Assembly: GCF_900105215.1 (NCBI RefSeq)
Contig: NZ_FOIP01000001.1
Location: 2,916,501-2,980,500, forward strand
DNA: 64,000 nt
Origin: Lacrimispora sphenoides
Lineage (GTDB): Bacteria > Bacillota > Clostridia > Lachnospirales > Lachnospiraceae
Reading direction: 5' to 3'
The translations under genes were made by a program, and so were the position numbers. This document shows, piece by piece, positions 48,701 through 64,000 of this stretch. The stretch's first letter is position 1, and every line of letters begins with the position of its first letter. The notes under the pieces are model-generated. The model did not search any database. It was not told the DNA's origin and was given only the letters and a program-made list of their open reading frames with translations.

Positions 48701-50883
48701 TCGCCAACAGTCTTTGTTCCGGCTTTAAGTACCTGCTTGCTTAAAACGCTGCTGTTATAAATGGTTCCGGCATTTCCGTCATCTAAATGTACTGTTCCAT
48801 AATACAGGGAAGCAGTATTGCTGATATCTTTGCCTGTATTTGCGGCAAAGATGTTCGGATCGAGAACCTGTGATTTGAAATTATAAGTGTATGCCTTGTC
48901 AGTATTGAACCCACTGACCACAAGAAGGTCACCTACGCGTGTAGAACTTACCATAACTGGTTGGATGGTAAAATTCAGACCATTCTTAGTCCAGTTTTCA
49001 TTCTCGGTCCCACTTTCATTAACAACTTTCTGACCATACATTGGTGCTATCTTTTTGTATTCTTCGCCAACCAAAGTATTAAGGTTTGTGCTGTCCAGGT
49101 TTACAGAGTTACCGTAAATCAAAAGGTCGTATACTTTAAGGCTTGAAGTGTCATGAAAGCCTGATTGTTTTTTTAAGTCAACGGTTACTTTCCATTCGAT
49201 TTGGCGCAAGGGATAATTCGTTGATACATAACCTTTTGTAAGGCTGTCAAAACCAATGCCTACATCGGCGCTATCCGAAAAGGTTCCATTTGGTTTACCG
49301 GTCCAAGTCAGTGTCGCGGTGTTGTGATAGGTTTTAACTGCCCCTACATATGCATCATTTGCGACATCACATACAATCGTCAGCCGAACTTTCTTGCTGG
49401 TAGTTCCAGTCAGCGTATACTGTCCGCTCCCGGGTTCCGTTGTATAGGTTGGTACATTAGTCAGCCCATCGCCGGCAGTGAGTTCTGCCCATGTATCTGC
49501 CGCTGATTCATATTCCCATTTCGCTGACTTCCAGCTTAATCCTGCAGGGCTGGTGGGAAGATTATCAGTGATGGTCAAGTCCTGTAAGGGTATCTGATCT
49601 TGATTAACGGTGATAGTCCATGTAATCGTGCGGTCATTGGGGTTATATGTACCTTCACTCAGCCCGTCTCCTGGCTTACCCTCTTTTTTTATCAAATTTT
49701 TTCTTTGAATGGTTATTGGAACAGTATTTGTATTAACCAGCGTATCTTTTCCGAACTTTGCGGTATTATTGATTGTACCGCCATTGATCAGCATCTCCGC
49801 AGGAATCATCGTGCGAAAGGTGATGATCTGTTCTCCTTTCACATCTCCAAATTCATAGGATAACAGATTACTGGCATCAGGAATGACCTTAGGACTTGGT
49901 TCACTGCCATTGATCATAAACGAATCTTCCACATACTCACCAACATTCGTCAAATGGTCCTGGAATTTATAGCCAAGTAAAGAAATGTCGCTGCCCTTCT
50001 TTGCGTTTACTTTGACAGTCCATTCAATTTGTGTCTTGTCATCGGAAAGCCGGCCGGTTTTGCTCTGGGTCTGTGTGATTGGAATCTCCGGTGCCTTGAC
50101 AGTAAACTCCTTTCCTAAAATGTAAACATTGTTTTTTGGGTTTTCTTCCGTTACGTCGGAGCCGGTGTATTTCATGGTGGCACCGAATTCACAGTTGACA
50201 TTTGATATGCCCGGATCCTTAAGTACCTCTCCATTAAAGTCGATTCTTACCTGACTATTCTCGAAAGTAAGAGTCCCTACCTTTTCTCCGTTAAACGTTA
50301 AATTAAGTGTTGGGGAACCTACGATTGTTATGTTGTCATCCAGCTTCAGTATTGCAAAGTCTCCATAGCTAACGTACTGGTCTGGATCGCTTATGCCATC
50401 TCCCTCAACCGGTACATCAAAGGAACCTTCTGCTGTAAAATTCTGTCCAGCAATGATTTCTGTGACAGATGAACCATTCTGCTTGATTGATATGGTTAAA
50501 TTACCAAGTAATTCTGTTACATCCTTTGGTACCATATCCATAAATTCCGGCTGAAGACTTACTATGCCGGAAGGCGTGGAAGCGTTGGAATCTGTGGCTG
50601 TGGTTGGTTCATTCACCTGGCCTTCATCCAATTCTTCCGTTTCATCCGGTTCATCCGTGGGATTGGTTTTTTCCTCTTCCCCGGATGAATCCGGCTTATG
50701 CGCCTGACTACCGGTAGCGACGTTGTCATGGTTACTGATCTCAATTACACTGTCAGAACTGTCATTCAATGTATCCAGTCCTCCAGCCCAAACATTGTTG
50801 AGCGGCGAAAACACGTTCAGTACCATCATTAGTACCAACAGCCAGCTTACCAGCCGTCTTTGTTTACTTATTTTCAATCTCAT
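45724..50883 (-). CDS. Giant LPKTG-anchored surface protein with prealbumin-like repeats
   Basis: A 1719-residue cell-wall protein. The signal peptide spans residues 1-33, followed by an acidic Ser/Thr/Glu linker (about 45-110). A long stalk of beta-rich adhesin domains of the DUF11/SDR-like type occupies about 110-1030. A SpaA/Cna-B prealbumin domain lies near 1036-1150 (DIRKVNTQNQIIDGAVFTLY), then four related domains of about 115 residues each. A Gly/Pro-rich spacer leads to the sorting signal LPKTGDD, membrane helix and basic tail. Lys, Asn and Glu positions in such domains usually form internal isopeptide bonds. It should be anchored to peptidoglycan by a class A-type sortase not present in this window. 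The start follows AAAAGGAGGAATG. It is divergent from the gene at 51193. Confidence 0.9.
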   Translation of the reverse strand: MRLKISKQRRLVSWLLVLMMVLNVFSPLNNVWAGGLDTLNDSSDSVIEISNHDNVATGSQAHKPDSSGEEEKTNPTDEPDETEELDEGQVNEPTTATDSNASTPSGIVSLQPEFMDMVPKDVTELLGNLTISIKQNGSSVTEIIAGQNFTAEGSFDVPVEGDGISDPDQYVSYGDFAILKLDDNITIVGSPTLNLTFNGEKVGTLTFENSQVRIDFNGEVLKDPGISNVNCEFGATMKYTGSDVTEENPKNNVYILGKEFTVKAPEIPITQTQSKTGRLSDDKTQIEWTVKVNAKKGSDISLLGYKFQDHLTNVGEYVEDSFMINGSEPSPKVIPDASNLLSYEFGDVKGEQIITFRTMIPAEMLINGGTINNTAKFGKDTLVNTNTVPITIQRKNLIKKEGKPGDGLSEGTYNPNDRTITWTITVNQDQIPLQDLTITDNLPTSPAGLSWKSAKWEYESAADTWAELTAGDGLTNVPTYTTEPGSGQYTLTGTTSKKVRLTIVCDVANDAYVGAVKTYHNTATLTWTGKPNGTFSDSADVGIGFDSLTKGYVSTNYPLRQIEWKVTVDLKKQSGFHDTSSLKVYDLLIYGNSVNLDSTNLNTLVGEEYKKIAPMYGQKVVNESGTENENWTKNGLNFTIQPVMVSSTRVGDLLVVSGFNTDKAYTYNFKSQVLDPNIFAANTGKDISNTASLYYGTVHLDDGNAGTIYNSSVLSKQVLKAGTKTVGDSGNGFNSLDKTAVFRLNINKDGFDLTGADIENGKLGKVTVTDTLPVGWSFVDIGSDVKYQLYTSSDTPVTDDSEIIESTNISGQNATFVFKKLDKAYYILVKAQLSDDQYLKYLEASYTNGRTDPYQTATNTVKMTAEGDNKWNPETTTSVQVSTQFLIKNVNTSKEPLEWTIKFNPYDLPDLKNIKITDKIPVGLELPFERNGSLNLTAFHITEYDQMINGAFPTSGGNVLTTEQLQDRISYDKDSRVLTFTPTDGKLYLIVYTTEVTGNVGTSLKNQVSVSGSSIDGTGTNASYQVDSSHASATLVRNGYIDIRKVNTQNQIIDGAVFTLYTDKTLQNPVLTSIMRPDGTLRINPIPAPKAFGDPAFTYYLKETTVPDTYESDNMIYIVTVAKDSNNKTITTVAGKTAGEVLTVINYQPDTVGNLSIRKMVDGNAGDINKDFNFTIRLIGQNIDGTYNYIGSGNKENGQLIITNGLGTVQLKHNESITITGLPKDTTYLVTESDYTGDGYQTTFSGEHGTIEINKTQTAEFNNTKYLPGSLVINKTVAGNTNETGPFEFTVTFTMPDGTSDDNSYDYTITGDAITKQIKNGGTLSISDGQSAVITGLPMDTIYTVTEKDYSASGYSSASTGSSGKIETDKVQTASFVNTKYLPGSLTIKKTVAGNSNETGPFEFTVTFTKPDGTPDDSSYGYTITGDSLAKHIKSGGTISIADGQSATITGLPKDTDYTVIEKDYSTNGYSTASIGSTGTIRTDEEHVAAFINTKILPGSLTISKTVAGSGADTKKKFDFTVTFNASGTYSYMGKGVSDGTIKSGDKISLADGESITITGLPDGTKYQVTEANYTSERYTAAQTGDSGIIRTLETSIAAFTNTYRKPTSSGGGGGGKTPSVKPKQPDPTKPDPTEPTEPGTPTTEVKPREEMTPQELYDVYGEVPLGYIVGSNGKLHPIGLPKTGDDMSDDIIIYGFLIISALLGLTSSGILWRKHFDK
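46050..47440 (-). repeat. Four tandem prealbumin-like domain repeats
   Basis: Units of about 345 bp encode domains opening with G-(S/N)-L-(V/T/S)-I-x-K-x-V-x-G-N and closing with F-x-N-T. The middle two (near 46730 and 47080) share KTVAGN, ETGPFEFTVTFT and ITGLP blocks at the DNA level. The outer two are more diverged, which points to recent duplication in the middle. Confidence 0.85.
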
Positions 50884-51040
50884 TCCTCCTTTTAGTACTG
50901 CCTTTCATTGAATTTCAGGCATATGCCTGAGAATTGCGGCTTTGTATTTATAGTAATTCTTCCGCTGATTCGAATTTAGCGCAAAGAATCCTACGAAGAT
51001 TATATAAAGCTGCCTTACTTGACGCTTGAAAGTTTTTAAA

Positions 51041-51172
51041 AAAAGTTACGGGAAAATAGACAAGAATGAAAAAATAAGTAACATTATTTTCCAAAATAGG
51101 AAAAGCAGGGTAAAAGGTTACACTGAAATAGACAAAAGAGAAAAATCATGTTACAATATTTTCCAGAATATG
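51041..51172. repeat. 72-bp-period imperfect direct repeat in the divergent control region
   Basis: Two copies (51041-51100 and 51113-51172) share GTTAC (51045, 51117), AAATAGACAA (51054, 51126) and TTTTCCA (51087, 51159), all exactly 72 bp apart. They lie between the LPKTG gene and the regulator at 51193 and are probably binding sites for that regulator or the remains of a promoter duplication. Confidence 0.7.
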
Positions 51173-51192
51173 GAATAGTGGGGGAGCAAGTG

Positions 51193-52608
51193 ATGAAAAC
51201 CGGTAAATTGCTGGAAGAGCTGATCGATATTGCAAAGACGCCGAAAACAGACTTTGCAATCAGCATGAATATGACTCCTAGTGGATTAAGTAAGATCTTA
51301 AAAGGAGGACGGCTGCCTTTTTTAAAGGAGAAGAGAGCATTCAGCAGACAGGCTGCTGCCTATTTTGCCGAGATTCTGTATGGCCATGGCTGTTATTTGA
51401 AATTTATTCATATCTTTCCGGTCATATATAATTTCAGTTCCAGGTATGAACTGGAAATATTTCTGGCCTATGCCATAGAATATGCTTTTGATAAAGATTT
51501 TGACGAGGAGAACAATGGGAATCTGGGTTATCCGGACAGGGAAGCCAGCTTTCTGGGGAAAAAGACCATTCTGAACATGTTTTGTGTGCTTGTTTCCGAT
51601 CATATCATGGTTAATCATGATATTCCCCTTGAGTTTTACAGTACCCTTTCTTTTTTTGACCAGTCATATTCCGATATTTTCCAAAGAATAAAAATATCAG
51701 GCTCCCGGAAGCGGGAAAGAGCTGTCTTTAACCACTATTTTGATATGTCCGTGATTGAGGCGTCAGCCCTCAATAATAATACTGATATACTTTCCTCCAT
51801 AGTCGGAGCACAGGAGTATGTAGACTTAAATTTATGGAAAATCACAAAAGAAATGAATTGCACCTTTTTACTTTTAAAGGGGCAATTTCTTCTGATCTTC
51901 AGTTTACAGCTGGATGGGATGCCCCTTATGACCTTTGTCAGCCATAAAGGCTATTTAAACGTCTTCTATAATTCACTGGTAAAGAAGGATGCTAAGAAAA
52001 TAAGCTATAGCGGAAGAGAAGCAGTTACTGTTCTGGAAGCAGATTCTTCTATTCTAACCAGGCTTATGGATATGCATGTGGAAGCTGTATATAATTTTAT
52101 ATCCATTGGTTATTTGATCGGAGAAAAGGATTTGGAATCTGTGAACGGGAGGGCAGTCTCAAAAAGAGCCATTCTGGAACTTTTTCGTAGAATACTGGAT
52201 AAGGAAACTGCTTTTTTCGTGACTGTGGATGCGATGATTGGTTTTTGCTCTACGGGAAAAGCGATTGTACCTCTTTTTGGCGTCGTGGACTTTCCGCCCG
52301 AGGAGCGTATCCCATACCTACAAAGGTTTAATACTTTTATTAATGATAAAAGTTCTGATAAAGTCAGGATCGTGAACAGTGAACAGCCGAAAGCGGCAGT
52401 ATTCTGTTTACAGGGGTTAAATCTGATTTATACGATTGACCATGATTATAAAAATGAAAAAATCCATTGCTTTGAAACGGATCTTTTTCAGTTGATTTTA
52501 AGCAGGGAAACATCAGAAAGTACGATGAAATTACTGGATTTCAGCCCTGACTTATGGCTGGCGTATCTCGATGAGATGTCCAGGAACCTTGGCAGATCCG
52601 CTTTATAA
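51193..52608 (+). CDS. Putative helix-turn-helix regulator, divergent from the surface protein
   Basis: A 471-residue soluble protein. The N-terminus (MKTGKLLEELIDIAKTPKTD, then FAISMNMTPSGLSKILKGGR) reads like an XRE-type helix-turn-helix. The remaining 400 residues are mixed helical and strand with no motif I recognise. The ATG at 51193 follows GGGGGAGCAAGTG; the frame from 51148 crosses the repeat region and is rejected. Location and the repeats upstream suggest control of the giant LPKTG gene, perhaps also of the pilus operon downstream. The large C-terminal part may sense a signal, but its family is unknown to me. Confidence 0.65.
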   Translation: MKTGKLLEELIDIAKTPKTDFAISMNMTPSGLSKILKGGRLPFLKEKRAFSRQAAAYFAEILYGHGCYLKFIHIFPVIYNFSSRYELEIFLAYAIEYAFDKDFDEENNGNLGYPDREASFLGKKTILNMFCVLVSDHIMVNHDIPLEFYSTLSFFDQSYSDIFQRIKISGSRKRERAVFNHYFDMSVIEASALNNNTDILSSIVGAQEYVDLNLWKITKEMNCTFLLLKGQFLLIFSLQLDGMPLMTFVSHKGYLNVFYNSLVKKDAKKISYSGREAVTVLEADSSILTRLMDMHVEAVYNFISIGYLIGEKDLESVNGRAVSKRAILELFRRILDKETAFFVTVDAMIGFCSTGKAIVPLFGVVDFPPEERIPYLQRFNTFINDKSSDKVRIVNSEQPKAAVFCLQGLNLIYTIDHDYKNEKIHCFETDLFQLILSRETSESTMKLLDFSPDLWLAYLDEMSRNLGRSAL

Positions 52609-52710
52609 AAATGTATAGGAGGTTCCCAAGGCTAAGGTATACGCCTGAAACTGCATTTTAGAGACTGCTGAAAATATTATAAAACGGAATAAGATTATAA
52701 CATTCAAAGA

Positions 52711-52750
52711 AAACCGGTGCCAGGATTTGAGTCCTGACACCGGTTTATTT
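52711..52750 (+). terminator. Terminator after the 51193 regulator
   Basis: A 15-bp stem AAACCGGTGCCAGGA/TCCTGACACCGGTTT with a single mismatch and a 6-nt loop, followed by TTTATTT. The rest of the gap up to 53028 shows no gene. Confidence 0.8.
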
Positions 52751-53028
52751 AATTAAGAAATTATTATTCTGGCTTATCCTTGGTATTCTGACATTTTTAC
52801 CTGAAGTACGTGAACCCGAACTTTGATGAAGGATCTGATGAATATGAAATTCAGTTCTGTTTTCTTTAACGTTTTTGCAAGAATAAGATAAGAATTTTAT
52901 AGCAGAAAGGGTCAGAGTATGGTAAGGAAATGTATATGATGACAACTGGTGCCAGATATGGAAAAGTACTGACTTTCTTATTTTATACTTGTAAAGTACA
53001 CAGTTTCTCAATATGTGGATCAACATTG

Positions 53029-53379
53029 CTATTTGCTTTCCCCACCAAGGCGTGTTTTCAAGGCTTTGATGGTGTCAAGCAAATATAGCTGTTCGTCTTC
53101 TGATAATCCCTTAATTACTTCATATAATTCAGTTAATATCTTTGCCCTCTGATTTATTCTTGCAGTGTTCTCCATCTCCCCCGAGCCATTCATTAGCCAG
53201 TCTTTGTTTATATTAAGGGTCTGGCAGATGGCATTTATGACTATAGTTTGTGGCTCTGTTTTATTTTTTTCTAAATTGAATATAACACCACGCGATACTC
53301 CAATAGTTTCAGCTAAGGAATCTTGGGTAAACCCTTTATTTTTGCGGGCATGTTTTAGGCGTCCGCCTAATGTATCCAT
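53029..53379 (-). CDS. XRE-family transcriptional regulator
   Basis: A 116-residue protein. The N-terminal helix-turn-helix reads LKHARKNKGFTQDSLAETIG with VSRGVIFNLEKNKTEP (about residues 7-60), followed by a helical tail. This is the layout of phage- and element-type repressors. The start at 53379 (MDTLGGRLKH) follows GAGGTGATTTCA; the frame from 53406 has no site. It is divergent from a 57-residue gene, sharing an inverted-repeat control region, and most likely represses both. Confidence 0.88.
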   Translation of the reverse strand: MDTLGGRLKHARKNKGFTQDSLAETIGVSRGVIFNLEKNKTEPQTIVINAICQTLNINKDWLMNGSGEMENTARINQRAKILTELYEVIKGLSEDEQLYLLDTIKALKTRLGGESK

Positions 53380-53397
53380 TGAAATCACCTCAAGGGA

Positions 53398-53472
53398 ATT
53401 ATACACCGCAAATAATTCATTGTCAATGCGGCTTAAAAAGCGTTGACAGTGAAAAAAATCCTATGCTATAAT
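53398..53472. promoter_or_regulatory. Divergent promoters with inverted repeat at both -35 boxes
   Basis: Minus strand: TTGACA (53426-53421), 17 bp, TATAAT (53403-53398) for the XRE gene. Plus strand: TTGACA (53443-53448), 18 bp, TATAAT (53467-53472) for the small gene. The -35 boxes form the arms of a dyad TGTCAATGC-N10-GCGTTGACA (53421-53448), a natural XRE operator that would block both promoters. Confidence 0.75.
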
Positions 53473-53507
53473 TCATTCATAAGGCAAAAATGAGAGGGGG
53501 TTATGCC

Positions 53508-53681
53508 GTGTCAAAGCAAAATGAAGATATAGAGCTGATAGATGAGATTATTGAAAATGTAAACGGGCTGCAGCTTGAATATCAGGAATTTTTTTTGGAA
53601 ATCGCTAAAGGAATGGCGTTTACAAAGAGCTGTTTAAACAAACAGATTGACGGCGAAACCGACAAGCCAAAGACTGCTTAA
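53508..53681 (+). CDS. Small acidic protein divergent from the XRE repressor
   Basis: 57 residues, VSKQNEDIELIDEIIENVNG..., predicted helical and acidic. GTG 53508 is 7 bp after AGAGGGGG; an ATG at 53490 precedes the site and is not used. It resembles the small partner genes found next to XRE repressors in Clostridia; function unknown. Its consensus promoter suggests strong expression when the repressor is off. Confidence 0.6.
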   Translation: MSKQNEDIELIDEIIENVNGLQLEYQEFFLEIAKGMAFTKSCLNKQIDGETDKPKTA

Positions 53682-53844
53682 CCACCGCAGGAACAGTGGT
53701 GTAGTTTGGAGCAAAAAGACTGCTGTTTATGCATTAATCAATACAAATTGAGAAAAATGGGATAAAGTTATGTTGAGAAAAATTGTTAATTAAATAAAGG
53801 ATATAACCAAATCAATATACAGCAGGAAGCGGGTTTATGTAAAT

Positions 53845-54387
53845 ATGAAGAGGTCAGTAAAAACTTATCGGCCAAAACATGCCGCAGCAACGAATTACTC
53901 CAGCCAGTCATTCTGGCTCTCACTTATAAAATGTACTGTGACTGCGGTGGCGGTAGCGGTGATTTTTAATACAATGTTTGGAATTGCAGCTGTATCAGGG
54001 ACCTCGATGGAACCGACTCTTTATGATGGGGATATAATCATATTTTGGAAACAATCAAGTTCATATGAAAGAGGGGATATTATATTTATTAAGGCAAATG
54101 GACGGGAAGATTACGTCAAGCGAATCTGCGGTATTTCCGGAGATGTGCTGGGGTTTGATGATGATAATGGACTTTTTCTTTTAAATGGAGAAGTACAAAA
54201 AGAGCAGTATATCTATGAAAGGACTTATGGGAAGCCGAAAATCGGTTATCCGCTGAAGGTTTCCGAAGATCAGTTTTTTGTTATGGGAGATCACCGAAGT
54301 GATTCACTGGACTCCCGCAACTACGGCACTGTAAGTAAAAAACAGATCAATGGAAAAGCTCTCATCCTATTTCGTGGCAGGTTATAA
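53845..54387 (+). CDS. Signal peptidase I, catalytic residues intact
   Basis: A 180-residue type I signal peptidase with one N-terminal membrane helix (about 28-50). The catalytic Ser lies in SGTSMEPTLYDGD and the catalytic Lys in DYVKRICGISGD; box E is MGDHRSDSLDSRNYG. It cleaves secreted precursors at the outer face of the membrane. It begins the pilus gene cluster, 32 bp before the giant adhesin gene, so it may be dedicated to pilus proteins. The ribosome-binding site is poor (AGGAAGCGGG lies far upstream), so the start is less certain. Two TTGAGAAAAAT direct repeats (53748, 53773) lie in the 160 bp upstream. Confidence 0.87.
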   Translation: MKRSVKTYRPKHAAATNYSSQSFWLSLIKCTVTAVAVAVIFNTMFGIAAVSGTSMEPTLYDGDIIIFWKQSSSYERGDIIFIKANGREDYVKRICGISGDVLGFDDDNGLFLLNGEVQKEQYIYERTYGKPKIGYPLKVSEDQFFVMGDHRSDSLDSRNYGTVSKKQINGKALILFRGRL

Positions 54388-54419
54388 ACGTATGAAATTA
54401 TTGAAGGCAGAGGTACAGT

Positions 54420-57400
54420 ATGAGAAAAAAATGTAATTGGCACATTGGCCTTTCGCTGTTGCTGGTAGTGGTGCTGATTATAGGATTGCTGCCGGTTACA
54501 GGTATCGCCCAGAATGACAATGAAGGAGAACTAATTTTGTCCTTTGACATGCCTGTGACAGAAATTAATGTTCCATTAGGTACGGTAAGTGCAGATATTC
54601 CGTTGCCTGAAACCCTGACAGCAACCCTGGAGGGCGGCTCAACAGTGAACATACCTGTAACATGGGGAACCAGTGGATTATATCAAAAGGATGAGGCAGG
54701 AACCTATCTGTTTACTGCTGATATCGGAACCTATGTCTATGCAAAGGCACGTCCTGTTGCTGTGGTAACAGTAGTACCCTTAGGCGAACTTTTCCATGAG
54801 AATCAGATCAGCGGCAAGCTGTGGCTGGATGAAAATGGTGACGGTGTAATGGATGATGGTGAACATGCTATAGCAGGTTATCCTGTCAGCCTTTATACAG
54901 CAGATGATAAAAGCACGGCAATCAGGGATACGAAAACTCTGTCAGACGGGACATACCGGTTTGATAACGTGGAACCAGGCAGTTATGTGGTGGGTATAGC
55001 ATCTAAGACCATTGAAGAAACAGAATATCTTCTGCCGACAGAAGGGGTTACCGGTGATAATAAATTTAATCTGGTACAGATAGACGAGGAAATTACAGCT
55101 GCTTACAGCGAACCGGTTGTGATCATGGAGGATGTTGATACTGCGGCAGAGAATATAAATGCCGGACTGTACCAGGGAGCCAAACGATTTTCTTTTCTAG
55201 TAGGATCATTCATAAACCTGCCTTTAGGAGGCAATGTACTTGCCAGCGGTGACACGGGCAAATTGGTAGTAATGGAAGCGGACGGGGATCCTTTAAGCGG
55301 CTATTATGAGGCATATACCGCAAATGAAAGCGGCCTTCGTGCGGCGCTGATGGGAATCTACCAGAGGAACCAGGCAGAATCAGATTATATTATGTATTTT
55401 GGTTCCAATATTACGAATCTGCCGGGAAATATTTTTAATGATACCACTTCCGCAACCGGTACCGGAGATGTTACATTTGCCTCCTTGCGTGAGAGATTAA
55501 ATACACTTGTGCTGACAGGGGATCAAGAGGATCCGGTTACAGACACGCCGGCGGCTTCCGCCCCCTCCAATGCAAGCCTCATCTCCGTTTCAGGCACCGG
55601 TGAAAGATATTTCGGCTGTAACATCATTCTCCGCAATATCCGGCATACGTTTAATGCAGGTAACAGCGGAACACAGGGTGTATATATGAACGGGTATGCC
55701 CTTACCCTGGGGGGGAACTCCTGGCAGACGGCAGCCACCCGCTATTTTGGAGGAAGCAGCACCGGGTTTGTTACGCCTTATGAGGAAACTGCCTCCATCA
55801 CGGTTTACTCTACCGGCAATGGAGACTCTTACTTCATCGGCGGTATGAGGACAGGCACCTTAAATGGCAATGCTGCTGTTACGATACTTGGTACCAGCGG
55901 CAATACCTTCAGTATCCGGGGCGGTGGCCTGGGCACCTCCGCCAGTGCACCTGCCAATATTACCGGCAGTGTGACTAACACCATCATCAATATGGCTACC
56001 GGGAGCGGTGGATTGGAACGTTTCCTTGGTGGGGTGGAATATGGGTCCGTAGAAGGTCCGATCACCAATGAAATCAGCGGAAGCGGCAGGTTTACATCCT
56101 CGGATGCAGGATATACCTGGACTTCAGGTACAAGCCGTTTTATCGGAGGCTCCCTTTACGGTGATGTGGGAAGCGATGCCACGCTGGGAAGTGCTTTGGA
56201 TACCTCCGATCTTACAGGTCTTTTATATACGGACGATTATGTCATCAAGAACTATATCGATACCAGCAATTTTACCAATGGAAGAGCGTGTTATATCGGT
56301 ACTAATTTCCAGTCCGGCATTGTAAAAGGTAATGTTATCAACCTTGTAAAGGCGGGGACGGACAACAACGGATCCATCAGCGTTTTTTCCGGAGGTGCAA
56401 GTATCTACGCGGCCATCGGGGGTGTCTGGCAGAGTCAGTTCACGTATTATCCTTCCACTGCAAAGGTCACAAACGTGGAGGCCGGACTTAACGCAGCTAA
56501 GGCTGCAGCCGATTACCAGCTGTACGGTAATATTACAAATGTAATATATTCGGGCAGCATCTGCTATAGCGCAGACAATGAGCATTGGTTCCGCGGTGCC
56601 GGCTGGGGATATATGGAAGGAAACGCTTATTCAGAGGTTGGAACAGAAGGAATAGCCTATCTGGGAAACTATAAAAGTTACAGCTATTCTACCACCAATA
56701 GATCTCAGGGATACAACACGGGGTTCGATCTGGTCGGAGGCGGAGGAACTATCTCAGCTAATAACAGTTTTTGTATCAAGGGGGATACGACTTTGGTCAC
56801 CAGGAATGTCCTTGCACGCTGGACCTACGGCGGCAGTTTCGGCGGGGTGCAGGTGGGGGATTCTGTACGGATTCATCATGGGGGTGTGGTTGATACCTGT
56901 GAGGGAACCGGCTACAACAGCTTTATCCATGTAGGGGATGGCCGCGCAGAGGTGCACGGCGGACAGGTGGATTGGTTTCTCAGCGGCGGTGGCTGGAACG
57001 ATTCTTATCAGGATGGGAATGTAAGCGTTGAAGTTTTCGATAAACCAAATGTTTACATAAATGCTTCAATGGGAGGTACCTATGGTTCTTCTACTACCCA
57101 CTATATCAGTGGCGATTCGACGATAGTCGTACATGGAGGCAATTTTTCCGGGACGGCTCGTGCTGACGTTTTCCGGGGGTTTTCCGCGGGCCCGTCATAT
57201 GCCGGGTATATTTACGGCAATGCAAGTGTTACGATCGATCTGCGAGGAAACCAGTATGGTTTTTCCCTTGCGTCCGGTGACAGCATCAGCGGAGGACGGA
57301 GGCTGGGGGCTGGTACAAGCTCTTATCTAGGTACAGATGCGAACAATACGGTTACATTGAATGTTCTCACTGACGATTCCCAGACAGATCTGCTGAATGG

Positions 57401-59810
57401 GCTTAACATATACGGAGATTGTTCTGGTACGGCAGCCAGCGCAGGTAATACAAGGGCCGGGCGTATTATCATCAATGTCAATGCCCCTAATGCCATCATC
57501 GGAAATCTTTACGCCACGGATTACTCGAATCTTACCGGGGGAACTTTAAGAAGAGATGTGCAGGTAAATCTGGTTTCTGCGGGGACCATTACAGGACTTT
57601 GTGCCGGCAATGGTACGGAAAACATCACAAACACCGTGGCCTCAGCAAGTGAACAAGCTGGTAAGAAAGCAGTAATAAACGTTGGACCGCAGTCTGCGGA
57701 TCCCAATGATATCCTGGGTGACTGGGAAACCGGCCAGACCCCAGACGGCCTGCCTCATCGGATTTTGATTTCTACGAACGGCATCATCGGCTTTACCTCC
57801 ATGGATATCCAGAAACGTCTGCTGGTAGCACAGAACGGTAATATTAAAAACGGTTTAAATGCCACAGTATCCAATCACGGCACGTCCTATCATACCTTCG
57901 GAGATGTGACCCTGCATGCAGGGGAAGGGATGGTGGGTGCAGGCTTAGGTATTGCCTCTGCCGGCGCATCTTTCATTGCGGGTACAGCACATGTGGAAGG
58001 CGAAGGTCAGGTATATATCCAGTCTACCGGTCAGGTAGACCAGATCGTTCTCACTGATATCATAACCACCGAAAATAACGCGCTGACATGGCTGAAGGTG
58101 GGGAATGTTAGTGCGGACAGCAATCTGCAGACGAACTGGTTCGGAGTCAGCAGCGGCTGGCGCGTCATCACTTTGAATCCGGATAAAGAAAAAGCAAAAG
58201 ACAGGATCACCCCTGTGAATTTCAGAGGCTCTGAAGAGTCCACAGGAAAAACGTTCATCGGGGACAGCGATACGCATTTCTCTGGAAATAATGGATATGC
58301 AGTTGCAATTCTCGGTTCGGTCTATAACTGGGAGGTAACGGAAGGATATGGCAAGGTATCTCATAATGTTCCGGTATCTACCACAGTGCCGTCTTCCGGG
58401 CATTCTATAAGCGCTTACGGTACTGTTCCGGCAGATACGCCGTCTGCAAAAGGGTCCATTGCTCTTCCAAGCGCTTTGATTCCAGGAACGGTTCCCTATC
58501 CGGTGTTTTCCTTTATCCCGGATTCTGCCCGCGGTGAACATATGGAAAGCGTTGACATCTTCGGTTCTGACCGGTATATATCCGCAACGCCGCATATGTA
58601 CCACATTGATGCAGGTGATGTTAATCAGGTAAAAACCTGGACAGCAAGCGGTGACGACAAGGACTATAGCTTTGATATCAGAGCACAGTTTGCCCAGGGC
58701 GATACCCAGGTATCTGCCCAGGACGTCATTATCACAGAATCGGAAGCGGCAGCCATTAACAGTGTGGATGATGTCATCTCGTATACGCAGGCCAGCGGAT
58801 CCCCTTTCTTCGGAAACAATATAACGGCCCAGCTGCTTGATGAGATCCGCACACCGCTGGGGCAGGATCAGACGTGGCGGACCCATACAGTCAGCTATAC
58901 AGCGGGAGATGAGGCGCTGACAGGGGGTCAGGTACATACAGACGCCCGTGTTACCGTTGTGAGAGACGGAACGGCTGTATCAGCAGACCGGCAGTTTGCT
59001 CTCTATGCCAATGATGGGACGATGACACTGGAACAGGCCCAGTTGATAGGCAGCCAGACGGCTCTGGACAGCGGATTTACAAAGGCTGTGGCGATTCTGG
59101 CAAATGGAACTACTGCGATGCCTTCTATTGATGATGGAGCTCTTCCTGCTATTACAGGTTCGACTGCCGCAACGGTTCCCAAAGATGTTCCGGTCAGCTA
59201 TTCTTATGCTCCGGATGGGCAGTCCCAGGCAGTTACGAAACAGGTAAACGTACATATTGAAGGTCCGAGTGAAGTAAATGTTACCATTTCCAAAAGAGTA
59301 GCAGGCGACTACGCCGACAAAACAAGGGAATTTTCGTTTGCAATATACATTCGGGACAACAGCGGAGCCGCCATCCCAGCCGGAACCCAGCTTTTATATA
59401 CAGGCAGTACGGTATCCGGCTCTGGAGCAGAGGCACCGGCCAATGGAACACTGACACTTAATGAGGAAGGAAAAGCCACGTTTACGTTGAAGCATGGCCA
59501 GCAGATAACCGTTAAAAATCCTGTGCCGCAGGGCAGTGTCCAAATTGTAGAATCAGCCGATCCGAACTACAGCGTGTCTTTTACGGACAACAGCACCACA
59601 AGCGCAACAAACGGTTCGGATACCGGGATAGTCAGCCTTGCAGGAGCAGACAAAACCTTTGATTTCATCAACACAAGAATTTCTGTCGTACCGACCGGCG
59701 TATTGATGGGAAGCATACAGGGGCCGGCTCTTCTAGGGCTGTCCATGCTTTTGCTGATGGGGCTGTTTAGCGCCTGTATGATTAATTACCGCCGGAAAAG
59801 GAGTTTGTGA
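54420..59810 (+). CDS. Giant pilus-associated adhesin with VPTGV sorting signal
   Basis: A 1796-residue surface protein. The signal peptide spans about 1-31 and an Ig-like domain about 40-125. An SdrD/Cna-B domain (about 130-215) opens GKLWLDENGDGVMDDGEHAI. A very long Gly/Ser/Thr/Asn-rich beta region (about 250-1340), probably a beta-helix or repeat adhesin, follows. A C-terminal pilin-like domain (VTISKRVAGDYADKTREFSF) leads to VVPTGV, a membrane helix and RRKRSL. The sorting motif differs from LPXTG and matches the pilin encoded next, so the same class B sortase probably attaches it. Position and motif resemble the tip adhesin Cpa of streptococcal FCT pili. The start ATG follows AGAGGTACAGT. 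Confidence 0.88.
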   Translation: MRKKCNWHIGLSLLLVVVLIIGLLPVTGIAQNDNEGELILSFDMPVTEINVPLGTVSADIPLPETLTATLEGGSTVNIPVTWGTSGLYQKDEAGTYLFTADIGTYVYAKARPVAVVTVVPLGELFHENQISGKLWLDENGDGVMDDGEHAIAGYPVSLYTADDKSTAIRDTKTLSDGTYRFDNVEPGSYVVGIASKTIEETEYLLPTEGVTGDNKFNLVQIDEEITAAYSEPVVIMEDVDTAAENINAGLYQGAKRFSFLVGSFINLPLGGNVLASGDTGKLVVMEADGDPLSGYYEAYTANESGLRAALMGIYQRNQAESDYIMYFGSNITNLPGNIFNDTTSATGTGDVTFASLRERLNTLVLTGDQEDPVTDTPAASAPSNASLISVSGTGERYFGCNIILRNIRHTFNAGNSGTQGVYMNGYALTLGGNSWQTAATRYFGGSSTGFVTPYEETASITVYSTGNGDSYFIGGMRTGTLNGNAAVTILGTSGNTFSIRGGGLGTSASAPANITGSVTNTIINMATGSGGLERFLGGVEYGSVEGPITNEISGSGRFTSSDAGYTWTSGTSRFIGGSLYGDVGSDATLGSALDTSDLTGLLYTDDYVIKNYIDTSNFTNGRACYIGTNFQSGIVKGNVINLVKAGTDNNGSISVFSGGASIYAAIGGVWQSQFTYYPSTAKVTNVEAGLNAAKAAADYQLYGNITNVIYSGSICYSADNEHWFRGAGWGYMEGNAYSEVGTEGIAYLGNYKSYSYSTTNRSQGYNTGFDLVGGGGTISANNSFCIKGDTTLVTRNVLARWTYGGSFGGVQVGDSVRIHHGGVVDTCEGTGYNSFIHVGDGRAEVHGGQVDWFLSGGGWNDSYQDGNVSVEVFDKPNVYINASMGGTYGSSTTHYISGDSTIVVHGGNFSGTARADVFRGFSAGPSYAGYIYGNASVTIDLRGNQYGFSLASGDSISGGRRLGAGTSSYLGTDANNTVTLNVLTDDSQTDLLNGLNIYGDCSGTAASAGNTRAGRIIINVNAPNAIIGNLYATDYSNLTGGTLRRDVQVNLVSAGTITGLCAGNGTENITNTVASASEQAGKKAVINVGPQSADPNDILGDWETGQTPDGLPHRILISTNGIIGFTSMDIQKRLLVAQNGNIKNGLNATVSNHGTSYHTFGDVTLHAGEGMVGAGLGIASAGASFIAGTAHVEGEGQVYIQSTGQVDQIVLTDIITTENNALTWLKVGNVSADSNLQTNWFGVSSGWRVITLNPDKEKAKDRITPVNFRGSEESTGKTFIGDSDTHFSGNNGYAVAILGSVYNWEVTEGYGKVSHNVPVSTTVPSSGHSISAYGTVPADTPSAKGSIALPSALIPGTVPYPVFSFIPDSARGEHMESVDIFGSDRYISATPHMYHIDAGDVNQVKTWTASGDDKDYSFDIRAQFAQGDTQVSAQDVIITESEAAAINSVDDVISYTQASGSPFFGNNITAQLLDEIRTPLGQDQTWRTHTVSYTAGDEALTGGQVHTDARVTVVRDGTAVSADRQFALYANDGTMTLEQAQLIGSQTALDSGFTKAVAILANGTTAMPSIDDGALPAITGSTAATVPKDVPVSYSYAPDGQSQAVTKQVNVHIEGPSEVNVTISKRVAGDYADKTREFSFAIYIRDNSGAAIPAGTQLLYTGSTVSGSGAEAPANGTLTLNEEGKATFTLKHGQQITVKNPVPQGSVQIVESADPNYSVSFTDNSTTSATNGSDTGIVSLAGADKTFDFINTRISVVPTGVLMGSIQGPALLGLSMLLLMGLFSACMINYRRKRSL

Positions 59811-59811
59811 C

Positions 59812-60369
59812 ATGTCTGAATTGCAGAAACAAGGAGAAAATAAAGCAGCAGAAAAAATTTACGAATTTCAGGCAGAACCCTCACTTGGAAAAGAAATCGT
59901 GTTTCTTCTGGCAAAAATAGCTGCGATCATCCTCGCCTTCCTTTTGGTGTTCACGTTTTTGTTTGGTCTTTGCCGCAATTCGGATGCCTCTATGGTTCCG
60001 TCCGTTAAAGACGGAGATCTGGTGATGTTCTACCGTCTGGACAAAAGCTATGTTGCCCAGGACACCCTTGTTCTGGAGTATAAAGGAAAGAAACAGGTGC
60101 GCCGGGTAATCGCCACAGCAGGTGATACGGTAGATATCACGGAAGACGGGCTTCTGGTTAATGGCGCGCTTCAGCAAGAAGCAGGAATCTATTCACCTAC
60201 GCAGCGATATGAAGATGGCGTAGAATTTCCGCTTACTGTCAGGGAAGGAGAAGTATTCGTTCTTGGTGACAGTAGGGAAAACTCCACAGACAGCCGTATA
60301 TACGGAGCTGTGAGGGTGAAAGACACACTGGGGAAAGTGATGACGATCCTCAGACGTAGAAATATATAG
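59812..60369 (+). CDS. SipA-like signal peptidase homologue lacking the catalytic lysine
   Basis: A 185-residue signal peptidase I family protein with one membrane helix (about 27-52). The Ser box is present (SDASMVPSVKDGD), but the position of the catalytic Lys reads QVRRVIATAGD, with Arg where the intact paralogue at 53845 has Lys (VKR). It is therefore probably not a normal peptidase. In streptococcal FCT pili the SipA protein is a catalytically dead signal-peptidase homologue required for pilin polymerisation, and its gene occupies the same place, between adhesin and major pilin. It starts 1 bp after the adhesin stop. Confidence 0.85.
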   Translation: MSELQKQGENKAAEKIYEFQAEPSLGKEIVFLLAKIAAIILAFLLVFTFLFGLCRNSDASMVPSVKDGDLVMFYRLDKSYVAQDTLVLEYKGKKQVRRVIATAGDTVDITEDGLLVNGALQQEAGIYSPTQRYEDGVEFPLTVREGEVFVLGDSRENSTDSRIYGAVRVKDTLGKVMTILRRRNI

Positions 60370-60468
60370 CATATGCGGAACAATAGGCGGCAGAATGTCA
60401 GAATACAACCCCGCCATCCCCTGTGTTTATATAAAAAGTACAAGAATAACAAACAAGGAGTGAATACG

Positions 60469-61764
60469 ATGAAAAAAAAATCGAACGAGTTACGAGGGAG
60501 GCTGACGGCCATGGCGCTTGCTGTGGTCATGTGCATGGGAACTGTCATATCCTCATTTGCGGCCGGTGATCCGATCTTTGGTACGGAAGACGCACCAGCA
60601 GCGGCCGCGATCACGAAAAATCTGATCATGCCGGAAGGAACTACAACACCGGCTGCAACCTTTACCTTCCAATTTTCCCCGGTAAGCGTTGACGATAGAA
60701 CAACATCTGATGATTTAAATACAATGCCGGCCGTTGGTCCAACGACCTTAGCATTTTCAGCCAGCGATACAGGCACTGTATCTGCCGGTGCCAAGAACAT
60801 ATTAAAGCAGTCTGGGGACGTTCTTTCCGGCGTTTCCTTCCCCCATGCGGGCGTATACGTATACAAAATTGATGAGAATCCCAGTGTGACCGGCTATACA
60901 CCCGGGGACAATGAGTCCTATGTATTTTCTCCTGCACAGTATACGCTTACGGTTTATGTGAAAAATGGTGTAAATGGACTGTACGTGGCTGCTGTCGCTT
61001 CAAGTATTTCTGTGAATGACAGCAGTAACCAAACTTCCGATCCTGGCGATAAGGTGGATCCGACTCCGCAGCCAGGTGACCCTAACATCACTGGCAATTA
61101 CAGTAAAATAATCTTTACCAATACCTATTCAAAAACCGCAGGCGGCGTTGACCCTACGGATCCGAATAACCATGTTCTTACTATAGGAAAAGCTGTTTCA
61201 GGCGATTATGCCGATAGGACCAAGTATTTTGCATTTCAGATAACGGCGACTCAGCCGGGTGTTGTACAAGGCTCTGCTACATATAAAGCGTATGTTCTGG
61301 ATTCAGGCAATAACGTAGTAACATCAGAAGACAACGCCTCTAACCTGCAAACTGACGTCAACGATTATTCGTATATTGAATTTACGTCGGGAGCCACAGA
61401 AACAGTTAATCTCAAACATAATCAAAAGCTGGTATTTACTGATTTGCACATTGGTGCAAACTATGTTGCAGTAGAAAGTGCAGTGGAACATTATACGGCA
61501 TCCGCAATGGTCGTGGAAAACGGGGTAGGTCCGATCCAATATTTTAATTCAATCGAAAATTTGTCTCTTAGTACCAGCACCAAACTGATCGGAGAAAATG
61601 AAAACAGTGCTGCATTCACCAATACCTACAGGACCATTACTCCTACAGGCGTGATTATTAACAACCTTCCCTTTGTTATGATTTTGATTTTGGCAGCAGG
61701 GGCATTTGCGGCATTTGTAGTAATAAAATCCCGTAAAAAAAGCAACTATGTTCCCCATCGTTAG
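60469..61764 (+). CDS. FctA-like major pilin with TPTGV sorting signal
   Basis: 431 residues: a signal peptide (about 1-28), then two FctA/Spy0128-type isopeptide domains. Domain 1 runs from ITKNLIMPEG to IIFTNTYSK; domain 2 from LTIGKAVSGDYADRTKYFAF to AAFTNTYRT. The opening Lys and closing Asn of each are placed for an internal Lys-Asn bond. The C-terminus is ITPTGV, membrane helix, KSRKKS. It should be polymerised by the class B sortase encoded next. The ATG at 60469 follows AAGGAGTGAATACG; the earlier ATG at 60373 has no site. Confidence 0.88.
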   Translation: MKKKSNELRGRLTAMALAVVMCMGTVISSFAAGDPIFGTEDAPAAAAITKNLIMPEGTTTPAATFTFQFSPVSVDDRTTSDDLNTMPAVGPTTLAFSASDTGTVSAGAKNILKQSGDVLSGVSFPHAGVYVYKIDENPSVTGYTPGDNESYVFSPAQYTLTVYVKNGVNGLYVAAVASSISVNDSSNQTSDPGDKVDPTPQPGDPNITGNYSKIIFTNTYSKTAGGVDPTDPNNHVLTIGKAVSGDYADRTKYFAFQITATQPGVVQGSATYKAYVLDSGNNVVTSEDNASNLQTDVNDYSYIEFTSGATETVNLKHNQKLVFTDLHIGANYVAVESAVEHYTASAMVVENGVGPIQYFNSIENLSLSTSTKLIGENENSAAFTNTYRTITPTGVIINNLPFVMILILAAGAFAAFVVIKSRKKSNYVPHR

Positions 61765-61830
61765 GCCGGGACGGAAAAGCGGCAGGAATATCCTGTGATT
61801 TACATTTAACTTACCGGAAAGGGGTCTTAT

Positions 61831-62778
61831 ATGGACATAAAAAGAATCGGCAGAAAAGCAGTAAAAACCGCAAACAGTATTGTAGATTTCCTGGTTCTGA
61901 CTGTCATTCTCCTGCTGGTCGCTATAGCTTTTTATGCCATATGGGACTCGGATCAGGTATATCAGGCAGCGGATGCTGCCCAGTACTCAATTTATAAGCC
62001 GGATGCAGAAGAAGGCAGCATATCATTTGATGAACTTAAGGCAATTAACCCGGAGGTATTCAGCTGGCTCACAGTTTATGGCACGAATATTGACTATCCG
62101 GTAACACAGGGAAATGATAATGCAAAATATGTAAATACCAATGCATTAGGAGAATATTCCCTGTCGGGAGCGATCTTTTTAGACTATTCTAATAGTAAGG
62201 ATTTTCAGGATTTTAACAGTATTTTATACGGACATCACATGGAAAAACAGGCAATGTTCGGAGAACTTGGCTCATTCAGCAGCAAAAGTTTTTTTGACAA
62301 CCATGTATACGGCAATCTGTACTATAACGGGAAAAATCATGGATTGGAATTTTTTGCTTTTATTAAAACGGATGCATACGACGGAGGAGTGTTTGCGCCG
62401 CGGGTCCAGGGCAAAGAGGCACAGCAGGCTTATCTGCAATATCTGTTGGATAAGGCAATGCATACCCGTGAAACCGGAGTTACGACGGAGGACCATATTC
62501 TGCTCCTGACCACCTGTGCTTCGGATGCCACCAATGGAAGAGATATTCTTGCAGCCAGGATCATGGAAGAATGTTACACCAATACGTTTGACAAGGAACT
62601 ATCAGGCGATACAAACGAATCAGTATCGGTGGACCGGCAAGCTGGTCTGTGGGAAAGCCTTCCCCAGTGGCTGAAGATCATGCTGCCGATTATGCTGATA
62701 ATCCTGTTTGCTATTGCAGTTTATCATAAAGTTAGAAGAAACGCGAAAGGGGTTAATGGAGATGAGCTCCAAGAATAA
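61831..62778 (+). CDS. Class B-type pilus sortase
   Basis: A 315-residue sortase with an N-terminal membrane helix (about 18-40) and a second C-terminal helix (about 280-300). Catalytic His is in ILYGHHMEKQAMFGEL, Cys in LLTTCASD, Arg in GRDILAARIM. The extra C-terminal anchor is common in pilus polymerases, while the catalytic domain is class B, as in SrtC2 of streptococcal FCT-3 pili, which uses QVPTG substrates. It probably joins the TPTGV pilin and the VPTGV adhesin. The start follows GGAAAGGGG; its 3' end overlaps the next gene by 17 bp. Confidence 0.9.
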   Translation: MDIKRIGRKAVKTANSIVDFLVLTVILLLVAIAFYAIWDSDQVYQAADAAQYSIYKPDAEEGSISFDELKAINPEVFSWLTVYGTNIDYPVTQGNDNAKYVNTNALGEYSLSGAIFLDYSNSKDFQDFNSILYGHHMEKQAMFGELGSFSSKSFFDNHVYGNLYYNGKNHGLEFFAFIKTDAYDGGVFAPRVQGKEAQQAYLQYLLDKAMHTRETGVTTEDHILLLTTCASDATNGRDILAARIMEECYTNTFDKELSGDTNESVSVDRQAGLWESLPQWLKIMLPIMLIILFAIAVYHKVRRNAKGVNGDELQE

Positions 62779-63997
62779 AGTGAATCCGAAAGGGATAGCT
62801 GTGTGGTATCTGCTTATCCTCAGTCTTATGGCCATAGCATTTCCCCTGGATACTCCCGCAGGAACGGATTCGGTTTCCGTTACTCTATATGTAGATCAGG
62901 TCTTCGTAAAAAACAGTTCCGCATCAGATGTGAACAATGTGTTTTTGTATGACCTTATTTCTCTGGATCCGGGAAATCCAATGCCGTCAGGGAGTTTAAG
63001 CAGTGTCCATTCCTTTACGGCTGCCGGTACAAGCGTGAAAGAAGTCGGTCCCATCACCTTTTCTAACACTGGTATATATCGTTACGAAATCAAAGGGAAT
63101 GCATCATCCCCGGCCAGTGGATATTCCTATGATACTCAGGTTTATTCGGTGGAAGTCTATGTGAAGAGGATCACAGAAGAGCTTTCGGCTGAGATCATAG
63201 TAAAAAAAAATGACGGCAGCAAAGTGGGCAGCATTAAGTTTGAAAATACTTATACTCCCCTTGCAAGCGATCCCGAGATTATGGTAGATCCGCCGGTGAA
63301 AAAAACAGTATCCGGCAACCCATCAAAAACCAGCAGTTTTACCTTTTCCCTGACGGCCAGAGATGGGGCAAATCCCATGCCGGAAGGCAGCGCGAATGGT
63401 GTTAAGTATATCACCATTTATGGTTCCGGTGAAAAGGATTTTGGTACATGGAGCTATATCCGGGAAGGTACTTATTATTATACTATTTCTGAAGTAGTCC
63501 TTCCGGACACCGGATATACTTACGATGACTCTGTTTACACGATCACCGATGTGGTAAAGGATACAGATGGACAGCTTGTAGTTACTCGGACGGTAACAAA
63601 CGGCTCAAACAAGCAGGTGGAATCCTGTACGTTTATCAATAAGTATAACGGAGGAGGCGGAAGCAGTGGGAGCGGCGGAAGCGGCGGGAAAGGGAGCGGT
63701 GGAAGCAGCTCTGGAGGCCCTGGTGTCAAAATCGATGAAAACAGTGACGACAGCCTTCAATTTGTAAATGGAGATACTCCGCTTGCAAACCTTCTCGAAA
63801 ATGAAAGCAATGCCGGTTCTGGTGCTTACAGCCCAAAAACCGGTGATGATATCAGATACGAATTATATGCAGCAATGCTTTGTACAGCTGCTGCTGTCGC
63901 GGCGGGGTGTGTGATCTATCTGATCCTGGCCTCCAACCGCATAAAGAAAAATCAGAGGAAAGATGATAACGGTGAAATAATCACAGGTGAAACATGA
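62762..63997 (+). CDS. FctB-like basal pilin with SPKTG cell-wall sorting signal
   Basis: 411 residues: a signal peptide (about 8-30), two FctA-type domains (VSVTLYVDQVFVKNSSASDV and PVKKTVSGNPSKTSSFTFSL, each closing with F-x-N-x-Y), a Gly/Ser spacer, then SPKTGDD, membrane helix and basic tail. SPKTG is of the LPXTG type, unlike the PTGV motif of the other pilus proteins, so a housekeeping sortase should fix this subunit, and with it the pilus base, to the wall. ATG 62762 is 9 bp after AAAGGGG; the ATG at 62756 is the alternative. Confidence 0.87.
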   Translation: MSSKNKVNPKGIAVWYLLILSLMAIAFPLDTPAGTDSVSVTLYVDQVFVKNSSASDVNNVFLYDLISLDPGNPMPSGSLSSVHSFTAAGTSVKEVGPITFSNTGIYRYEIKGNASSPASGYSYDTQVYSVEVYVKRITEELSAEIIVKKNDGSKVGSIKFENTYTPLASDPEIMVDPPVKKTVSGNPSKTSSFTFSLTARDGANPMPEGSANGVKYITIYGSGEKDFGTWSYIREGTYYYTISEVVLPDTGYTYDDSVYTITDVVKDTDGQLVVTRTVTNGSNKQVESCTFINKYNGGGGSSGSGGSGGKGSGGSSSGGPGVKIDENSDDSLQFVNGDTPLANLLENESNAGSGAYSPKTGDDIRYELYAAMLCTAAAVAAGCVIYLILASNRIKKNQRKDDNGEIITGET

Positions 63998-64000
63998 GTA
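63994..64000 (+). CDS. Possible next gene of the pilus operon, start only
   Basis: ATGAGTA at the window edge overlaps the stop of the basal pilin gene (ATGA) with AGGTG just upstream, the same coupling used elsewhere in this genome. Two codons are visible, so nothing can be said about the product; another sortase or pilin would be expected. Confidence 0.3.

Follow-up and report, generated by a model that had tools for sequence, protein, structure and literature searches.

What does the gene cluster at the downstream end of a 64,000-nucleotide stretch of the Lacrimispora sphenoides genome (hereafter the window, G000:C1:2916501-2980500) build? A first-pass annotation, made from the sequence alone, had read positions 53,845 to 63,997 as a complete pilus operon resembling those of streptococcal FCT regions. 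Our analysis supports, with high confidence, a pilus operon of nine genes whose product would be assembled by sortases; it belongs to the PI-2/FCT kind, which relies on SipA and a class B sortase, and we propose a route for its assembly. The most likely product of these genes is a covalently bonded fibre on the cell surface, with an adhesive tip that can be swapped. Its genes are listed below, in window coordinates unless prefixed with the contig (C1).

53845..54387, + strand: signal peptidase I, catalytic Ser54 and Lys92 intact (SMEP ... YVKRICG); TIGR02227, 1.9e-33
54420..59810, + strand: tip adhesin of 1796 residues with signal peptide, Big_4, SdrD_B, beta-helix-like head, DUF7601 and VPTGV sorting signal; profiles and structure comparison
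59812..60369, + strand: SipA-like pilus assembly protein of the signal peptidase family, Ser retained, catalytic Lys replaced by Arg; SipA 4n31 and LepA 4k8w best solved relatives
60469..61764, + strand: major (shaft) pilin with two isopeptide Ig-like domains and TPTGV sorting signal; model pLDDT 89.1, PitB best match, triads
61831..62778, + strand: SrtB1, class B sortase of pilin polymerase type; TIGR03064 over cut-off
62756..63997, + strand: basal pilin with FctA-type domains and SPKTG anchor signal; PF12892 7.5e-29, Spy0128/FctB relatives
63994..64000, continuing to G000:C1:2981291, + strand: srtB2 (265 residues), first bases only in the window
C1:2981316-2981735: DivIVA-domain gene (139 residues), beyond the window
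C1:2981749-2982609: gene for a secreted acidic protein, beyond the window

The six pilus genes within the window were recovered as plus-strand open reading frames (ORFs) exactly where the first-pass annotation had placed them and in the order that it gave. The hidden Markov model searches that it had suggested supported their families far above chance, with matches to Peptidase_S26 (3.2e-31 and 5.8e-24 for genes 1 and 3), to the TIGR03064 sortase profile and to the FctA domain. Further matches were found to SdrD_B (6.4e-12) and to DUF7601 (7.9e-15 and 7.6e-12), a domain present in both the tip adhesin and the shaft pilin, and the pilin also matched a streptococcal pilin repeat weakly (Pfam and NCBIfam). 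The operon is not complete within the window: three more genes belong to it, of which srtB2 starts at 63994, almost wholly past the window edge, and the other two lie entirely outside. The shaft pilin ORF opens at 60373 and its start at 60469 was placed by the signal peptide; the basal pilin ORF spans 62708-63997, with a likely start at 62756 that overlaps the srtB1 gene by 23 bases. Downstream, base and srtB2 genes overlap by 4 bases, and gaps of 24 and 13 bases precede the DivIVA-domain and acidic protein genes, respectively. The translations bear out the division of motifs between the proteins expected to be polymerised (VPTGV, TPTGV) and the anchor (SPKTG), each motif being followed by a hydrophobic span and a basic tail. 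Among the matches listed (the best 120 of 194, 256 and 1150 for homologues, and the best 80 of 300 in the scan of genome contigs), the best named relatives were Lacrimispora proteins, some from L. sphenoides, in agreement with the Lachnospiraceae-type genome that had been proposed.

The predicted structure of the shaft pilin best matched PitB of the S. pneumoniae and S. oralis PI-2 islets, with a TMt of 0.75 to PitB versus about 0.45 to S. pyogenes Spy0128, a score that also varies with the inter-domain angle. PitB entries were also the only good sequence matches of the pilin, which is 25-28% identical to PitB. For both reasons FCT, taken at first as the nearest model, gives way to PI-2. Missing Lys-Glu-Asn triads had been named as evidence that would speak against a pilus; both are conserved, K49-E135-N217 in 61, 61 and 58 of 61 aligned pilins and K240-E335-N384 in 57, 56 and 61 (residues are numbered from the one after Met). 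The protein thereby combines the two isopeptide Ig domains and the PTG sorting signal expected of a PI-2/FCT-type shaft pilin. Its sorting signal follows the pattern TPTG(V/I/L)..(N)NLP(F/Y), with Gly393 and Pro400 invariant in 61 rows, and reads VTPTGLLIDNLPF in the PI-2 shaft pilin of L094. Outside the triads, K194 is Lys in 60 of the 61 pilins, the remaining row having a gap, and would be the best candidate for the acceptor lysine of a Thr-Lys link; K221, Lys in 57, is a second candidate.

SrtB1 matched the class B sortase profile TIGR03064 at 2.5e-57, over its cut-off. Among solved class B sortases its score was 233 bits to 4y4q (SrtB family, source unconfirmed), 159 bits to 3psq, confirmed as the pilus sortase Spy0129, and at most 107 bits to the other 13 sequences listed, with 87-88 bits to NPQTN-specific SrtB. 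A haem-type (Isd) sortase B, which the first-pass annotation had held to be incompatible with its reading, was rejected: the neighbours are pilus genes, the bit scores favour Spy0129 and 4y4q, and the tree agrees. In this tree of 103 sortases, 75 SrtB1 proteins grouped with two PI-2 SrtG1, one SrtG2 and one pilus-locus sortase (L100) with support 100/98, which places SrtB1 in the polymerase clade; within it, SrtB1 stood among Lacrimispora and other clostridial sortases, apart from SrtG1. By contrast, 18 of the 22 rows labelled SrtB2 formed a clade of their own (100/99) beside two other class B sortases of this genome (99/90), and SrtB2 was rejected as an orthologue of SrtG2, the one SrtG2 row grouping with SrtG1. 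Nine sortase ORFs shorter than 235 residues or missing the search motif stood outside the tree (one each from L026, L034, L052, L063, L076, L080, L093, L094, where it is the second sortase, and L102). Genome-wide, PF04203 found seven sortases and TIGR03064 the same seven places, five over the cut-off and both SrtB2 proteins just below it (151.9 and 145.1 versus 153.75); all seven are class B. The class A type profile TIGR01076 gave no match here, nor did it in the set of 25 genomes of the genus. Among 14 control genomes it matched three (B. subtilis, C. glutamicum and Lactococcus), over the cut-off in two.

The two signal-peptidase-like genes appear to form a live/dead pair. The first keeps Ser54 and Lys92 and is predicted to be the active signal peptidase that it had been called. 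The third, likewise correctly described as SipA-like, has SipA 4n31 (79 bits) and LepA 4k8w (76 bits) as top solved relatives, ahead of a signal peptidase at 34.5 bits, and has the incomplete Ser-Lys dyad that sets SipA apart within the signal peptidase family. We surveyed 82 loci (both operons of this genome and L025-L104) with a local profile and recovered 67 signal-peptidase-like ORFs above 100 bits from 62 of them; ORFs of L043 (minus strand, 84 bits), L089 (54) and L046 (43) were excluded. Ser and Lys were both present in 5 of the 67, in each case an extra first gene (L019, L020, L025, L026 and L027). The catalytic Lys was absent from all 62 others, replaced by Arg (49), Glu (4), Leu (3), Gly (2), Ala (2), Met (1) or Ser (1), and 16 of these retained the Ser. 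Where at least 3 kb of upstream sequence was available (58 loci), a signal-peptidase-like gene lay within 4.5 kb of SrtB1 in 53 and a pilin gene within 4 kb in 56. The S. pyogenes SipA, with Asp and Gly at the dyad positions, is reported to be essential for polymerisation (PMC4049620). The missing-Lys rule is not universal, since the same source describes an S. suis and S. agalactiae homologue with an apparently intact dyad (PMC4049620). Why class B pili need a dead signal peptidase has been stated as an open question (PMC7900414). It becomes testable outside streptococci with the clean rule seen here, under which all 62 have lost the Lys while the Ser drifts, and with a lineage in which a live partner adjoins.

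The tip adhesin had been likened to a giant Cpa. Its size of 1796 residues stands, and its C-terminal domain is Cpa-related, being the only part that matches Cpa (2xi9, 1.7e-4), with a partial match to the Cpa-related profile NF033396 far below cut-off. Pfam revealed no thioester domain in the tip at E 0.1 and no vWA domain in the operon proteins. The head matched no solved structure by Foldseek at E up to 0.001. VIA-align returned mostly beta-helix proteins, a result that speaks to shape and not function, and the head is most likely a beta-helix. A 1648-residue giant protein in a WxL operon of Enterococcus phoeniculicola (L120) is homologous to this head (42% over the best stretch), suggesting that adhesive heads move between unrelated display systems; the paralogous operon of the same L. 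sphenoides genome carries a different tip head.

The basal pilin carries a PF12892 FctA domain (7.5e-29), has Spy0128 and FctB as relatives and gave no TIGR03063 signal at E 0.1. Because no class A sortase was found in the genome, class A anchoring, as in FCT, is not to be assumed. We read base sorting signals from C-terminal tails, as the automatic signal finder missed or misread many. Among PxTG bases, Leu came first in none of 21 that adjoin SrtB2 (mostly GPKTGD) and in 5 of 14 without SrtB2 (Fisher p 0.006, indicative only, because the loci are related by descent and the value overstates their independence). The test covered PxTG motifs; other motifs are found at 12 of the 26 counted loci that lack SrtB2 and at 1 of the 22 that have it. 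The counts leave out 13 bases in which no motif was recognised, 4 loci where less than 1 kb follows the base, and bases truncated by contig ends (L042, L088). All five Leu bases in the test (L044, L070, L083, L084, L101) belong to genomes with a TIGR01076 sortase, as does L099, which has a small LPQTG protein outside the base profile. In genomes without such a sortase (G328, G330, G331, G332, G341, G342, G343 and G000), the first motif residue is V, G, G, T, A, N, I and S/V, respectively; the TIGR01076 check covered 22 of the 80 named loci, from 21 genomes. On balance, class B anchoring of non-Leu bases is favoured. Similar signals without Leu are used by C. difficile SrtB.

Other base variants were seen in the survey. 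Fused ORFs, possibly assembly errors, join SrtB1 to the base in L081 and L085 (metagenome-assembled genomes, MAGs, of Bifidobacteriaceae) and the base to SrtB2 in L057 (a Eubacteriaceae MAG), with a weaker case in L093. Base-like proteins without a clear sorting signal but with membrane-span-like ends occur in L036, L052, L058, L062, L068, L073, L076 and L096, mostly MAGs of Coriobacteriia and Family XIII, and perhaps belong to membrane-held pili. Signals of the form xVKTGD, with Val in place of the motif Pro, occur in L090, L091, L095 and L097 (Lachnospiraceae and one further MAG).

We propose the following route of assembly. Signal peptides would be removed by the operon's own signal peptidase, a general one or both, and the tip adhesin would be loaded first. 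In the PTG signals of tip and shaft pilins, SrtB1 would cut the Thr-Gly bond and couple the Thr to a Lys on the shaft pilin that follows, K194 being the best candidate, while the SipA-like protein would present or position the sorting signals for SrtB1 and cut nothing. Incorporation of the basal pilin would end growth, whereupon SrtB2, as an anchor-type class B sortase, would do the work of the missing class A sortase and attach SPKTG to peptidoglycan. The protein with the DivIVA domain, from a family concerned with positioning in the cell, probably sets the assembly site at a pole or septum, thereby suggesting a route by which pili could acquire a position. More tentatively, and at less than even odds, the operon may be a self-contained class-B-only machine for bacteria without class A sortase, one operon providing polymerase, anchor sortase, a live/dead signal-peptidase pair to process and present the pilins, a DivIVA-domain landmark to fix the building site of the fibre, and a cassette tip whose beta-helix head is shared with a WxL operon.

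Several observations weigh against the proposed route. The Lacrimispora pilus is predicted from gene content, K194 is put forward on conservation, and the inactivity of the SipA-like protein is putative rather than proved, because its Ser is kept. Four SrtB2-labelled rows do not join the SrtB2 clade: L054 and L077 branch at the root of the SrtB1 side, L100_2794 falls within that side, and L040_15828 has a very long branch. Common descent tempers the base-motif p value. Genomes with a TIGR01076 sortase can have bases without Leu, too (L026, L027, L028, L040, L054, L067, L082). Since 5 of the 9 checked genomes with a SrtB2 locus carry such a sortase (L026, L027, L028, L040, L054), SrtB2 is not confined to genomes without class A, and a strict rule confining it to them was rejected. 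Comparison with solved structures gives no clear preference for SrtB2 as an anchor type: Lmo2181 (89 bits) and 5gyj (C. difficile SrtB, 87 bits) come first, but Spy0129 (83 bits) is so close behind that the ranking alone is indecisive. We consider it rather unlikely that SrtB2 joins tip to shaft or shaft to base, leaving the fibre to be anchored, like other surface proteins, by a general class B sortase. The genome has three more class B sortases that could do so, the same class of base motif occurs without SrtB2 at some loci (e.g. L031, L041, GPKTGD), and the authors of the C. perfringens study leave the role of their own SrtB2 open (PMC8088525). However, SrtB2 lies outside the polymerase clade, its gene overlaps that of the base by 4 bases and a base-SrtB2 fusion occurs in L057, all of which speaks against this alternative.

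That the proteins are displayed singly on the wall, without forming a polymer, is improbable given a PitB-type shaft pilin with both triads, a pilus-type sortase and a SipA homologue of the kind on which polymerisation depends in S. pyogenes (PMC4049620). A streptococcal FCT or PI-2 islet that entered Lacrimispora recently is even less probable, and this origin was rejected. It would account for the same gene order and for the patchy occurrence of the island, but the pilin is just 25-28% identical to PitB, the nearest named relatives among the matches listed are clostridial, and the sortase tree, with SrtB1 among Lacrimispora and clostridial sortases and away from SrtG1, disfavours it. We retain a covalently assembled pilus, polymerised by SrtB1, as the preferred reading.

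A second copy of the full nine-gene operon lies at about C1:90100-100300 on the opposite strand. Identity between the two copies is 72.8% for the signal peptidase, 81% for the SipA-like protein, 63% for the pilin, 76% for SrtB1, 65% for the base, 74% for both SrtB2 and the DivIVA-domain protein, and 54% for the acidic protein. The same nine genes occur in another genome of the genus (L118). In L025 and the MAG loci L027 and L028, too, SrtB2 is followed by the pair of DivIVA-domain and acidic protein genes; the pair was not seen in the remaining SrtB2 loci examined. PF05103 (DivIVA, gathering score 28) was reached in both operons (31.3 and 28.5 bits), in L027 (28.4) and in L028 (30.4), with L025 (26.7) and L118 (20.4) below it. 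The island is patchy, SrtB1 (E 1e-60 or better) being present in 6 of 25 genomes of the genus and 8 of 299 sampled genomes of the family, this genome included in both counts. Response regulator and histidine kinase genes, LytTR/AgrC-like by eye, adjoin the paralogous operon in two genomes (L020:1916-4003, L118:3861-5967).

Upstream of the pilus operon, 45724-50883 (- strand) codes for a 1719-residue surface protein with four DUF7601 domains, DUF5979, SpaA, Collagen_bind and an LPKTGDD signal. DUF7601 matches were also found in open frames of 4702 (G000:C1:831559) and 4691 codons (C2:41602), probably giant surface proteins. A 486-residue protein at 51148-52608 (+ strand), which gave no Pfam match but whose N-terminus looks helix-turn-helix-like by eye, is a possible regulator; L117 has an ORF of equal length upstream of its operon. 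At 53398-53508, two perfect divergent sigma-70-like sites occur between a helix-turn-helix gene (-) and a small GTG-started ORF (+, by eye), in a region that is not alike in the sister genome. The strong site at 53443-53472 is probably not the pilus promoter, because the upstream region of this sister genome (L117) resembles the window only from about 53660. No Rfam family matched 50800-64000 at gathering scores.

How does the operon compare with known systems? Class B pilus polymerases, SipA and the gene order are already known from accounts of FCT and PI-2 (PMC3019223, PMC3178606, PMC7900414), and a clostridial class B sortase pilus has been demonstrated in C. perfringens (PMC8088525). PI-2 (pitA-sipA-pitB-srtG1-srtG2) shares the tip, SipA, a PitB-type shaft with (V)TPTG, a polymerase of the same clade and a second sortase in last position (PMC3178606). 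A PI-2 in the strict sense has no basal pilin and has SrtG2 as second sortase, whereas the Lacrimispora operon has a base, and its SrtB2 belongs to another clade than the one SrtG2 row, which groups with SrtG1. PitA has a vWA domain, which the Lacrimispora operon proteins lack by Pfam; in pneumococcal PI-2, pitA and most srtG2 are pseudogenes (PMC3178606). The PI-2 accounts consulted describe no extra signal peptidase or DivIVA gene, unlike the operon described here.

S. pyogenes FCT-2, FCT-3 and FCT-4 (cpa-sipA-fctA-srtC-fctB) share the order tip, SipA, shaft, class B sortase and base, which is the part of the first-pass comparison that holds, as well as a SipA without the Ser-Lys dyad and a Cpa-related C-terminal domain of the tip. 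The comparison fails for FCT as nearest model and for class A anchoring: the Lacrimispora shaft pilin is nearer to PitB, the tip head appears to differ from Cpa, and a strict FCT region has an LPXTG-type base anchored by housekeeping SrtA (PMC7900414), whereas here the base carries SPKTG and the genome gave no TIGR01076 match. The C. perfringens NE pilus (VR-10B: CnaA, signal peptidase, FimA, SrtB1, FimB) is likewise clostridial and built with a class B sortase; its base was suggested as a sortase B substrate, and the pilus was shown by immunoblot and immunogold transmission electron microscopy (PMC8088525). It differs in that srtB2 lies upstream in opposite orientation and a housekeeping SrtA is present (PMC8088525). 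Its base has a TIGR03063 signal, absent here at E 0.1, the two being likened by description and not by sequence. The WxL operon of E. phoeniculicola has the homologue of the tip head, with WxL and WxLIP proteins instead of pilins and SrtB1.

Searches of the open-licence literature, judged mostly from listings, brought up neither this operon nor a pilus operon with a DivIVA-domain gene, nor the head common to the two display systems. The newer features of the Lacrimispora system relative to these pili are the class-B-only set of sortases, a SrtB2 from a clade other than that of SrtG2, two adjacent members of the signal peptidase family, one live and one apparently dead, a gene with a DivIVA domain, a paralogous operon whose tip head differs, and a beta-helix head that also occurs in a WxL operon of Enterococcus.

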